DNA from: Clostridia bacterium
GTDB taxonomy: Bacteria > Bacillota > Clostridia > Christensenellales > Aristaeellaceae
Length of the DNA: 64,000 bases
Assembly (NCBI GenBank): GCA_017936765.1
Contig: JAGBEX010000004.1
Span: forward strand, 1-64,000
Direction of reading: 5' to 3'
Shown here: piece after piece, positions 31,415 through 35,804 of the stretch
How positions within the stretch are numbered: the first letter of the stretch is position 1
How the letters are laid out: each line of letters starts with the position of its first letter
Translations under genes and position numbers: made by a program
The notes under the pieces: model-generated
Database searches by the model: none
The model's input: only the letters and a program-made list of their open reading frames with translations
Told to the model about the DNA's origin: nothing

Positions 31415-31582
31415 GGTATCACAAGCAGCACTATTGCTTTTGACGCGCAGCGAAAAACTTTGATAATTTTCTCACAGAATCCGTGAATTCCCCCTGTTCA
31501 GACCGGGAAAAGTGTGCTATACTATCATGGACAATGAATGTCCCCATGTCACGACTATCTCATGATAGGAGGAACCAATCCG

Positions 31583-32284
31583 ATGCTTTACACCAAGGAA
31601 GTTGAAGAAATGGTATGCGTCGCGAAGGGCCCCAACCACGGCCCCGCGCCCATCCCGGAAGAGGGCAAGTGGATCCAGGCCAAGGAGATCAAGGACATCT
31701 CCGGTCTGACTCACGGTATTGGCTGGTGCGCCCCCCAGCAGGGCACCTGCAAGCTGACCCTGAACGTGAAGGAAGGCGTCATCCAGGAAGCGCTGGTCGA
31801 GACCATCGGCTGCTCCGGCATGACCCACTCCGCCGCCATGGCCAGTGAGATCCTGCCCGGCAAGACCATCCTGGAGGCGCTGAACACCGACCTGGTGTGC
31901 GACGCCATCAACACCGCTATGCGCGAGCTGTTCCTGCAGATCGTGTACGGCCGCACCCAGTCTGCCTTCTCTGACGACGGTCTGCGCATCGGCGCTGGCC
32001 TGGAAGACCTGGGCAAGGGCCTGCGCAGCCAGGTCGGCACCATGTACGGCACCCTGGAAAAGGGCCCCCGCTACCTGGAAATGGCCGAAGGCTATGTGCT
32101 GAAGATCGCCCTGGACAAGGACAACCAGATCTGCGGCTACCAGTTCCTGTCCCTGGGCAAGATGATGGACGCCATCAAGAAGGGCATGGAGCCCAACGAG
32201 GCCTACGAGAAGAACATCGGCACCTACGGCCGCTTCAAGGCCGAAGACGGCGCGGTCGCCTGGATCGACCCCCGCAAGCAGTAA
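31583..32284 (+). CDS. IscU/NifU-like iron-sulfur scaffold protein
   Basis: The 233-residue protein is related to IscU/NifU scaffolds. It carries Cys residues in GWCAPQQGTCKLTLNV and IGCSGMTHSAAMASEI followed by GKTILEAL, which line up with the IscU cysteine ligands and the GCG-x-AxxSS...GKT pattern. A C-terminal domain of about 90 residues is extra. No IscS or SufB is nearby. It is followed 19 bp later by a GGGtGRT-family protein, a pairing I know from database annotations of anaerobes without an assigned pathway. ATG 31583 follows AGGAGG. Fe-S assembly is inferred from homology only. Confidence 0.8.
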   Translation: MLYTKEVEEMVCVAKGPNHGPAPIPEEGKWIQAKEIKDISGLTHGIGWCAPQQGTCKLTLNVKEGVIQEALVETIGCSGMTHSAAMASEILPGKTILEALNTDLVCDAINTAMRELFLQIVYGRTQSAFSDDGLRIGAGLEDLGKGLRSQVGTMYGTLEKGPRYLEMAEGYVLKIALDKDNQICGYQFLSLGKMMDAIKKGMEPNEAYEKNIGTYGRFKAEDGAVAWIDPRKQ

Positions 32285-32303
32285 TTAGAGGAGGTATGTG
32301 ATA

Positions 32304-33320
32304 ATGGCTCTGTTTGAAAACTACGAAGGCCGCATGCCTCAGCTGCAGCCTGTTCTGGAAAAGTACGGCTTTGCCTCCTGGGAAGACCTGAAGGCTTACA
32401 ACAACTCCAAGGGCGTGGACGGCTACGGCATCACCGAAGGCATCCAGCCCATCTGCTTCGAGAATGCTAAGTGGGCCTACGAGCTGGGCGCTGGCATCGC
32501 TCTGAAGAAGGGCGTGAAGACTGCTAAGGAAGCCGCCGTGTGCATCGGCGAAGCCCTGCAGGCCTTCTGCATCCCCGGCTCTGTTGCCGACCAGCGTCAG
32601 GTTGGTCTGGGCCACGGCAATCTGGGCGCTATGCTGCTGGACGAAGCCACCGAGTGCTTCGCTTTCCTGGCTGGCCACGAGTCCTTCGCTGCTGCTGAAG
32701 GCGCCATCGGCATCGCCCGCAATGCCAACAAGGTTCGTAAGAACCCCCTGCGCGTGATCCTGAACGGCCTGGGCAAGGACGCCGCCATGATCATCAGCCG
32801 CATCAACGGCTTCACCTATGTGGAGACCAAGTACGACTACCTGTCTGCCGACGTGAAGGAAGACCACGCTCTGACCGTTGTGAAGACCGTGGCTTACTCC
32901 GATGGCGAGCGCGCCAAGGTCAACTGCTACGGCGCTGACGACGTGCGCGAGGGCGTTGCCATCATGTGGCACGAGGGCGTGGGCGTTTCCATCACCGGTA
33001 ACTCCACCAACCCCACCCGCTTCCAGCACCCCGTTGCCGGCACCTACAAGAAGGAAATGATCGAGGCTGGCAAGAAGTACTTCTCCGTTGCCTCCGGCGG
33101 CGGCACCGGCCGTACCCTGCATCCCGACAACATGGCTGCTGGCCCTGCCTCCTACGGCATGACCGACACCCTGGGCCGTATGCACTCCGACGCTCAGTTC
33201 GCCGGCTCCTCTTCCGTGCCTGCTCACGTGGAGATGATGGGCCTGATCGGCATGGGCAACAACCCCATGGTTGGCGCTACCGTCGCCGTGGCTGTGGCCG
33301 TGGAGAACGCCTCCAAGTAA
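32304..33320 (+). CDS. GGGtGRT family protein
   Basis: The 338-residue protein contains the family-naming motif SGGGTGRTLHPDNMAAGPAS (about residue 262). It also has several glycine-rich, highly conserved-looking stretches (GLGHGNLGAM, GVSITGNSTNPTRFQHP, GLIGMGNNPMVGATVAVAVA). There is no signal peptide. No biochemical role is known to me. Codon use is strongly biased to a few codons, as in highly expressed genes, and it is the second gene of an operon with the IscU-like scaffold. A role in iron-sulfur or metal-cofactor handling is the simplest inference from context. Confidence 0.85.
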   Translation: MALFENYEGRMPQLQPVLEKYGFASWEDLKAYNNSKGVDGYGITEGIQPICFENAKWAYELGAGIALKKGVKTAKEAAVCIGEALQAFCIPGSVADQRQVGLGHGNLGAMLLDEATECFAFLAGHESFAAAEGAIGIARNANKVRKNPLRVILNGLGKDAAMIISRINGFTYVETKYDYLSADVKEDHALTVVKTVAYSDGERAKVNCYGADDVREGVAIMWHEGVGVSITGNSTNPTRFQHPVAGTYKKEMIEAGKKYFSVASGGGTGRTLHPDNMAAGPASYGMTDTLGRMHSDAQFAGSSSVPAHVEMMGLIGMGNNPMVGATVAVAVAVENASK

Positions 33321-33561: not shown

Positions 33562-34338
33562 ATGACAACGAAGCTCATTTCCGACCTGATCCAGTCCAAT
33601 GCGTTTGAATTGTATGGACAGCCCAAATGGACCTTTGGCAAGAACACCTGCAACACCTATGAAGTGTTTGCCGAGGTGGTGCATTTGCCGGGCGGAGCAA
33701 CGATCCCGGCAGAGTTGCTGCTGGAGATCATCAAGCGTGATGAGGAATTGACGATGGTCTTTTCCCAATGGTTCCTGAAGGCAGCCATTGTGTCGGCTGC
33801 AGAGCTGTGCAAAAAAACCAATTCCCATGTGACGCTGTCGATGAATCTGCTGCCGCAGTATGCCAGCCAGGAGAATTTTGTTGATCGGGTGCTTGCGCTG
33901 CTGGAGGAAACTGGATTCAGCCCGAAAAAGCTACAGTTTGACCTGAGCGAGGCGCAGAGCCTGAATCCCATCGGTATTGAAAACCTGAACCGGCTGCATG
34001 ATGAATACGGCGTGAAGCTGTATCTTGCCAACTTTGGCAAGGGACACGCGAACATCGATCTGCTCAGGGATGTGCATTTTGATGGCATTGAGCTGGATCG
34101 CTCCTTTGCGGTGGGCGTGCCGGAGGATGACCAGATCAGCCTGATGGTGTTCGCGATCTATAATTTCGCCCATGCCCTGAACCTGAAGGTGTGTGCAAAG
34201 GGAATCGAAACGCCTGAACAGTTTGAATTCTTCGAGGATCTGAAATGCTTCAAGGGGCAGGGTTTCCTGATGGGCAAGCCGCTGCCGATTGATGAGCTGG
34301 CTGGGTACATCAATATGTATGCGATCCATGCGCAGTAA
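33562..34338 (+). CDS. Stand-alone EAL-domain protein, probably catalytically inactive
   Basis: The 258-residue protein folds as an EAL domain, the c-di-GMP phosphodiesterase family, but the key motifs are altered. EAL is EVF (34-36), the DDFGTG loop reads ANFGKG, and VAEGVE is CAKGIE. The loss of metal-binding Asp and Glu residues suggests it cannot hydrolyse c-di-GMP and may act as a receptor or protein partner. No GGDEF or sensor domain is attached. ATG 33562 follows AAAGGAG. It stands alone between two terminators. Confidence 0.85.
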   Translation: MTTKLISDLIQSNAFELYGQPKWTFGKNTCNTYEVFAEVVHLPGGATIPAELLLEIIKRDEELTMVFSQWFLKAAIVSAAELCKKTNSHVTLSMNLLPQYASQENFVDRVLALLEETGFSPKKLQFDLSEAQSLNPIGIENLNRLHDEYGVKLYLANFGKGHANIDLLRDVHFDGIELDRSFAVGVPEDDQISLMVFAIYNFAHALNLKVCAKGIETPEQFEFFEDLKCFKGQGFLMGKPLPIDELAGYINMYAIHAQ

Positions 34339-34389: not shown

Positions 34390-34422
34390 GGGAACCCTCC
34401 CGGAAGCGGGCGGGTTCCTTTT
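34390..34422 (+). terminator. Terminator of the EAL gene
   Basis: GGAACCC/GGGTTCC hairpin followed by TTTT. Confidence 0.8.
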
Positions 34423-34432
34423 CACTTCCTGC

Positions 34433-34461
34433 TTGTCATGCCGGGCAGACTGTTGTACAAT
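34433..34461 (+). promoter_or_regulatory. Strong promoter of the 27-residue peptide
   Basis: TTGTCA (34433-34438), exact 17-bp spacer and TACAAT (34456-34461), 30 bp before the start codon. Confidence 0.85.
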
Positions 34462-34491
34462 GTGCTATATGGAAAAAGGAGAGAATGCCTG

Positions 34492-34575
34492 ATGTGGATC
34501 CTTTTGACCTACGTATTCCTGCCCATTGTGGCCATCCTGGTGCTGAACTGGCTGTTCAAGCGATCCATGAAATAA
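34492..34575 (+). CDS. 27-residue single-membrane-helix peptide
   Basis: A short frame with AAGGAG ten bases upstream encodes MWILLTYVFLPIVAIL plus VLNWLFKRSMK: one hydrophobic helix and a basic tail. It has its own good promoter and terminator, so it is a complete transcription unit of about 150 bases. Such peptides include type I toxins (Fst/Ldr/TxpA-like) and regulatory membrane micro-proteins. I see no obvious antisense RNA promoter, so the toxin idea is only a possibility. Confidence 0.72.
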   Translation: MWILLTYVFLPIVAILVLNWLFKRSMK

Positions 34576-34580
34576 GAAGA

Positions 34581-34618
34581 TGGGGGAGCTTCTCCGGTGG
34601 GGAGGCTCCCCGCTTTTG
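34581..34618 (+). terminator. Terminator of the 27-residue peptide gene
   Basis: A GGGGAGC/GGCTCCCC stem with inner GGAG/CTCC pairing, followed by GCTTTTGTTT, 6 bp after the stop codon. Confidence 0.75.
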
Positions 34619-34681
34619 TTTCAGAAAAGTAAAGAATGGGTCAATTCTTTGCCCAAATGGACAATTTCAGCAAGAAAAGGG

Positions 34682-34710
34682 TTGAAATCCCAGCCTGAAT
34701 CCTCTATAAT
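34682..34710 (+). promoter_or_regulatory. Sigma-A promoter of the iron-type ABC importer
   Basis: TTGAAA (34682-34687), 17-bp spacer, perfect TATAAT (34705-34710). No obvious Fur box is seen. Confidence 0.88.
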
Positions 34711-34766
34711 AAAGGCAGATAAAGCTGGCATGCGATATCGCCAGCGAATAACGGAGGTAGAAACCT

Positions 34767-35804
34767 ATGAAGAAACTGGTCGCCCTGATGCTTGCCGTGC
34801 TGATGATCGGCAGCTGCTTCACCAGCGCCTTGGCCGTGAATGAGGACGTTTCCGGCAAGGTGATGATCTACACCTCGATGTATCAGTTCGTCATCGACAT
34901 GATGGACGAGGCCATCAAGAAGGAATTCCCCAACCTGGAAGGCGCTAACGAAGGCTCTTTCTTCTTCTATGGCGGCACCGGCACCATCCAGCAGAAGGTG
35001 GAAGGTGAAATGGACACCGGCACCTTGGGCTGCGATATGCTGATGGTGGCTGAGCCTGCTTACTCCCTGCAGCTGCAGGAAGGCGGCTGGCTGCACCCCT
35101 ATGTGGTGGAAGGCGCTGACGAGCTGCTCCGCTTCGACTACGACAAGGAAGGCTACTGGTACCCCGTTCGCGTTTGCAACATGGTGCTGGCCTACAACCC
35201 CGAAAAGTATTCCTACGACGAAGTTCCTCACACCTTCAAGGACTTCGCCTACGACACCAGCCTGAAGGGCCTGACCTCCATGGGCAACGCCATGACCAGC
35301 GGCACCACCATGGCTGCTGTGGCCGCCCTGACCGACAAGTATGGCTTTGAGTATCTGGACGCCCTGGGCGCCAATGATACCATGATCGAGTCCGGCTCCT
35401 CCGCCCTGGCGAAGCTGCAGACCGGCGAGTGCAAGGTCATCATGATCCTGGAAGAATCTGTGCTGAAGATCCGCGAGGAAGAAGGCAGCAAGATCGAGTG
35501 CATCTACCCCGAAGACGGCGTGATCCTGATCCCCTCCACCGTGATGACCGTGGCTGAGGATCGCAGCGCCAACATGAACGTGGAAGCTTGCGAAGCCCTG
35601 ACCGAGTGGCTGCTGAGCGAAGAAGCCCAGAAGCTGATCCTGGAAGCCTACATGCACTCTGTGTTTACCGACATGACCGAAGTGCCCTATGACTCCGTGG
35701 ATACCAACGGCCTGATCGAGAAGGACATGGGCGTTGACTGGGTCCGTTGCTACACCCAGCGCGACGAGATCCGCACCCAGTTCCAGGAGAAGGTTACCCA
35801 GTAA
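34767..35804 (+). CDS. Extracellular solute-binding protein, ferric-iron/FbpA-like
   Basis: The 345-residue protein begins with a signal peptide (MKKLVALMLAVLMIGSCFTSALA) with a possible lipobox at Cys17. The mature part is a type 2 periplasmic-binding fold: VMIYTSMYQFVIDMMDEAIKK at the N-terminus, then SGTTMAAVAALTDKYG and STVMTVAEDRSANMNVEA near the C-terminus, as in FbpA/AfuA and thiamine or phosphonate relatives. It should deliver ligand to the permease encoded next. The ligand (Fe3+, or another small anion or complex) is not fixed by sequence. Confidence 0.85.
   Translation: MKKLVALMLAVLMIGSCFTSALAVNEDVSGKVMIYTSMYQFVIDMMDEAIKKEFPNLEGANEGSFFFYGGTGTIQQKVEGEMDTGTLGCDMLMVAEPAYSLQLQEGGWLHPYVVEGADELLRFDYDKEGYWYPVRVCNMVLAYNPEKYSYDEVPHTFKDFAYDTSLKGLTSMGNAMTSGTTMAAVAALTDKYGFEYLDALGANDTMIESGSSALAKLQTGECKVIMILEESVLKIREEEGSKIECIYPEDGVILIPSTVMTVAEDRSANMNVEACEALTEWLLSEEAQKLILEAYMHSVFTDMTEVPYDSVDTNGLIEKDMGVDWVRCYTQRDEIRTQFQEKVTQ

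Follow-up and report, generated by a model that had tools for sequence, protein, structure and literature searches.

A family of predicted single-helix membrane microproteins kept by selection in three genera of Clostridia

The peptide gene and its flanking signals

The window analyzed here is a 64,000-nucleotide stretch of contig JAGBEX010000004.1 from a Clostridia bacterium of the family Aristaeellaceae. On its + strand, a 27-codon frame extends from an ATG at 34492 to a TAA at 34573–34575 and encodes MWILLTYVFLPIVAILVLNWLFKRSMK. Copies of this gene (34492–34575), which encodes a predicted single-helix membrane peptide, are kept in 13 genomes from three genera, and the changes among them are mostly synonymous. 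The ribosome-binding site AAGGAG (34476–34481, + strand), as read from the sequence, lies 10 nt before the ATG. Another ATG at 34485 is closer to the ribosome site and in a different frame; conservation is limited to the 27-codon frame. A sigma-70-type promoter match, TTGTCA-17-TACAAT (34433–34461, + strand), agrees at 10/12 positions. Among random 153-nt leaders matched in composition, about 0.6% would contain a match of at least 10/12 (P ~0.006), and matches of this quality occur at 0.09 per kb per strand across the window. The promoter with exact 17-bp spacing, the ribosome site, and the 27-codon frame proposed in the initial annotation were thus all recovered.

An intrinsic terminator follows at 34583–34618 (+ strand) and consists of a 13-pair stem, then GCTTTTG. 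The stem (34583–34611) folds at -27.6 kcal/mol (z -3.7). This strong terminator had been placed six bases after the stop codon, but the distance is 7 bases. Folding located a second hairpin with a short T tail at 34392–34422 (+ strand), which probably terminates the EAL gene that precedes it. It folds at -18.5 kcal/mol over 34392–34417 (z -2.8), was missed by the terminator scan, and is the weaker candidate because its T tail is only four long. The arrangement as a dedicated unit insulated from both neighbors is largely local to the window's genome and is not the conserved feature.

The gene immediately upstream (33562–34338) encodes an EAL-domain protein with no other recognized domain; it is present at 68–83% identity in seven congeners and was not found in the others. 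Farther upstream, at 31538–33320, a NifU-like protein adjoins a GGGtGRT-family protein (PF14057), a Pfam name that gives no function. Full-length GGGtGRT matches in congeners are 91–100% identical. Downstream, a strong 11/12 promoter match, TTGAAA-17-TATAAT (34682–34710), directly precedes a solute-binding-protein/ABC permease operon that begins at 34767.

Conservation of the frame in changing surroundings

Searching with the peptide returned full-length matches in 3/17 other genomes of the genus (E about 1e-12). The G006 and G015 peptides are 100% identical to the window peptide, and the G004 peptide is 93% identical (I3V, K27R). A profile search extended the set to 9 more genomes, with diverged members, from two other genera within the window's GTDB family, designated g66 (G194, G195, G196, and G201) and g14 (G149, G150, G151, G156, and G030). 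The consensus across genera reads M-x-I-L-L-x-F-V-F-L-P-I-V-x-I-x-V-x-[ND]-x-[IL]-F-x-R, and start and length are near-constant, except for a longer tail in g66. 

Presence is patchy, at 4/18 genomes in the window's genus (a minimum, because several contigs break off close to where the copy would be expected), 5/17 in g14, and 4/29 in g66, with one recognized copy per genome; because of this distribution the peptide is not a core subunit. No hidden homologues were found beside the GGGtGRT, EAL, or solute-binding genes of congeners without a match, several of whose contigs end nearby. Outside the family, 396 genomes from the order and 398 from the phylum yielded no confident copy and single marginal matches only. 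These, in G395 (E 0.004, a frame without the FLPIV pattern) and G946 (E 0.007, by score alone), were rejected as members, since chance would give as much in that many genomes. The phage, plasmid, and viral-contig collections contained no homologue of the peptide, and a mobile origin was rejected on that basis. The contigs with the three near-identical copies belong to Clostridia assembled from metagenomes of roe deer caecum and of sheep colon and to a third Clostridiales record.

The pattern of substitution was compared between pairs of members. In four pairs that differ by 3, 6, 10, and 11 nucleotides, 0, 0, 0, and 1 residues are changed, whereas random change would give 2.1, 4.1, 6.5, and 7.2 residue changes. 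Five within-genus pairs exhibit 0–3 residue changes, as compared with 4–9 under random substitution (P ≤ 5e-4). The same kind of changes alter 4–11 residues in the +1 and +2 frames, and stops are present in the other forward frames of 4/6 pairs compared. Because substitutions spare the residues and the other frames are not conserved, the 27-codon frame is under purifying selection as a protein. These sequence comparisons indicate that the 27-residue putative membrane peptide is the product of a real gene and belongs to a family of about 26–36 residues. The initial annotation had described a membrane peptide of one helix that ends in a basic tail and is small enough for gene finders usually to overlook, and the selection seen in the 13 genomes upholds that description.

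Sequence outside the frame behaves differently. When the loci of the genus are aligned, DNA identity is confined to the frame, and the promoter, ribosome site, terminator, and flanks are not alignable. The promoter match of the window is absent in G006 and G015; G004, the only other congener with a recognizable one, has a good match of its own (TTTACA-17-TATAAT). Ribosome-site-like AGGAG or AGGAGG sequences precede the frame in G006, G015, G156, and G150. Relatives of the window thus keep the frame and lose the promoter, and the converse, a broken frame behind a kept promoter, was not encountered.

The neighboring genes also differ. All four copies in the window's genus are located downstream of the GGGtGRT gene, at 1.0–1.5 kb in the window's own genome (G000), G006, and G015 and at 6.3 kb in G004. 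In G000, the EAL gene precedes the peptide and the solute-binding ABC operon follows it. In G006 the peptide has a zinc-ribbon membrane protein on either side, and in G015 it follows an unknown secreted protein, with its frame starting ~33 bases past the upstream stop, and precedes a GDSL hydrolase. In G004, a metallo-hydrolase starts at most 10 bases after the peptide. In g66 the peptide frame lies a few bases before a HAD hydrolase gene, with a GH88-type gene also nearby, and part of g14 has tandem ABC half-transporters and uxuA near the peptide. No constant genomic neighbor that would point to a partner was found across the three genera. In several species only tens of bases separate the peptide frame from other genes, and outside the window's genome the gene is probably often part of an operon. 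Because neighbors and promoters change while the frame stays, the conserved unit is the peptide and not the transcription unit.

Two local arrangements were recorded in the other genera. Orthologues of the HAD hydrolase (68–100% identity) occur in 4/29 g66 genomes, exactly those with the peptide, a co-occurrence that could be explained by shared descent of the four genomes. In one of them, G195 (L031:1501-2358; G195:C103:10553), the peptide frame runs stop-free into the HAD hydrolase, possibly as a membrane-anchored fusion or as two overlapping starts. In g14, the peptide follows the same ABC half-transporter 3′ site in G030 and G150 and is missing from it in G154 and G152 (L120 and L121 vs L122 and L124).

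Membrane topology and candidate roles

Every member of the family combines a single, strongly hydrophobic segment of ~20 residues with a basic C-terminal end. The best 19-residue Kyte-Doolittle mean is 2.39 for the window peptide and 2.4–3.2 among all members. The peptide is predicted to insert into the membrane as one helix with its N terminus outside and its C terminus inside, an orientation assigned from the basic end by the positive-inside rule. A cytoplasmic C terminus would fit both the basic end and the stop-free run into the HAD hydrolase in G195. On a helical wheel, the invariant residues P11, I15, and F22 are spread over no more than about 40 degrees, and the conserved positions of the span cluster on one face of the helix (moment test by permutation with 11 sequences, p = 0.01, a value that is optimistic because the sequences are related). 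Such a face would be more in line with partner docking or self-association than with unspecific damage to the membrane.

Of the roles considered, the most likely is that of an accessory subunit or regulator serving a larger membrane protein such as a transporter, signaling protein, or enzyme. It would insert as one helix, with its N terminus outside and its basic C terminus inside, and could dock on its membrane partner through the face formed by P11, I15, and F22 together with the cytoplasmic R24. The changing neighbors suggest that the partner is encoded elsewhere.

The initial annotation had offered a type I toxin or a membrane micro-regulator. As a type I toxin, the peptide would depolarize the membrane and be silenced by an antisense RNA. 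Its size, hydrophobicity, and single helix fit membrane type I toxins, which are generally <60 residues long (PMC8309996), and the patchy distribution and the occupied and empty g14 sites are also in keeping with such a role. However, the search for an antisense RNA that had been proposed for this locus gave no minus-strand promoter match of at least 9/12 within 34400–34780, the best being 8/12 with poor spacing, and no conserved non-coding sequence was found beside the frame. Between G000 and G015, synonymous change per codon is 0.22 in the frame (6/27 codons) and 0.09 (0.088) in the nearby GGGtGRT gene; because synonymous change in the frame is not slower, no constraint from an overlapping RNA is visible. 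The single recognized copy per genome, the lack of homologues in the phage, plasmid, and viral-contig collections, and the closely adjoining genes in several species also argue against a toxin. The toxin part of the proposal thus loses its expected supports, is not supported, and is considered unlikely, although a trans-encoded antitoxin RNA or a toxic effect is conceivable. A micro-regulator is plausible, and the peptide probably assists or regulates a membrane protein and is less likely to be a toxin silenced by RNA. It is also rather improbable that the peptide acts by itself without an RNA antitoxin, as a stress-induced depolarizing or bacteriocin-like peptide. A short hydrophobic helix with a basic end and an accessory distribution would be expected of such a molecule, but a specific partner would better account for the conserved face of the helix and for how nearly identical the peptide is across species, and no immunity or export gene was recognized beside the frame.

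A short frame with a terminator at once after it and an ABC transporter operon downstream could also represent a leader peptide that attenuates the solute-binding-protein gene. However, that gene is preceded by a separate 11/12 promoter match at 34682, no run of regulatory codons was recognized in the frame, and the residues are kept before different genes (metallo-hydrolase in G004, zinc-ribbon protein in G006, and GDSL hydrolase in G015). The leader reading was rejected because the neighbors change, and we regard it as very improbable. The same low likelihood is given to a remnant of some larger membrane protein or a frame that is translated but has no function; the patchy presence and missing constant partner would be consistent with this, but start and length are near-constant and selection removes residue changes. 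A tentative further reading is that the locus represents a mobile stand-alone membrane micro-gene of ~80 bp, under selection and cleanly gained and lost at intergenic sites by unrelated genes, whose product would act on a widespread membrane target encoded elsewhere. If so, the occupied and empty ABC-transporter 3′ sites in g14 would be snapshots of gain and loss.

P11, I15, F22, and R24 provide concrete conserved residues for mutation. The family adds a selection-verified case to the poorly charted membrane microproteins of bacteria, here in little-cultured Clostridia of the herbivore gut. Genes of this kind are identified by conservation of the frame and not by the anatomy of a promoter.

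Relation to known families and systems

Searches of Pfam, NCBIfam, PHROGs, PADLOC, PDB sequences, and Rfam returned nothing above cut-off. The NCBIfam profile MIGRI (NF047648) matched residues 4–27 at 15.8 bits, as compared with a curated cut-off of 28 (E 0.012), and is touched by 4/11 members; this weak profile similarity is probably a chance likeness of hydrophobic helices. A PDB match to MsbA (E 0.05) was rejected because it comprises one 12-residue hydrophobic stretch. In Rfam, no family reached its gathering score, and a microRNA match was at chance level (E 0.81). The peptide family is not described in the libraries searched; it is of an ordinary kind.

KdpF, AcrZ, MgrB, SafA, MgtS, MntS, and Prli42 belong to the same size class, with a single membrane helix, and are likewise often missed by gene finders; these well-studied proteins mainly work through association with larger ones (PMC11539335), which is in keeping with the role favored here. 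Unlike such small single-helix regulators and subunits, the present family has no sequence relation in Pfam, NCBIfam, or PDB and no constant partner operon. The membrane type I toxins TisB, IbsC, LdrD, Fst, DinQ, and Lpt are also short hydrophobic peptides with a helix (PMC8309996). Unlike these toxins, the present family lacks an antisense RNA signature and a conserved RNA context, is present as a single copy, and keeps its sequence while promoters change, and its contexts are operon-like. The uncharacterized small-protein families of microbiome catalogues such as GMSC likewise consist of short frames that are conserved and in many cases include a membrane helix; surveys report thousands of them, and a figure of 4539 families is cited for the human microbiome (PMC11364881).
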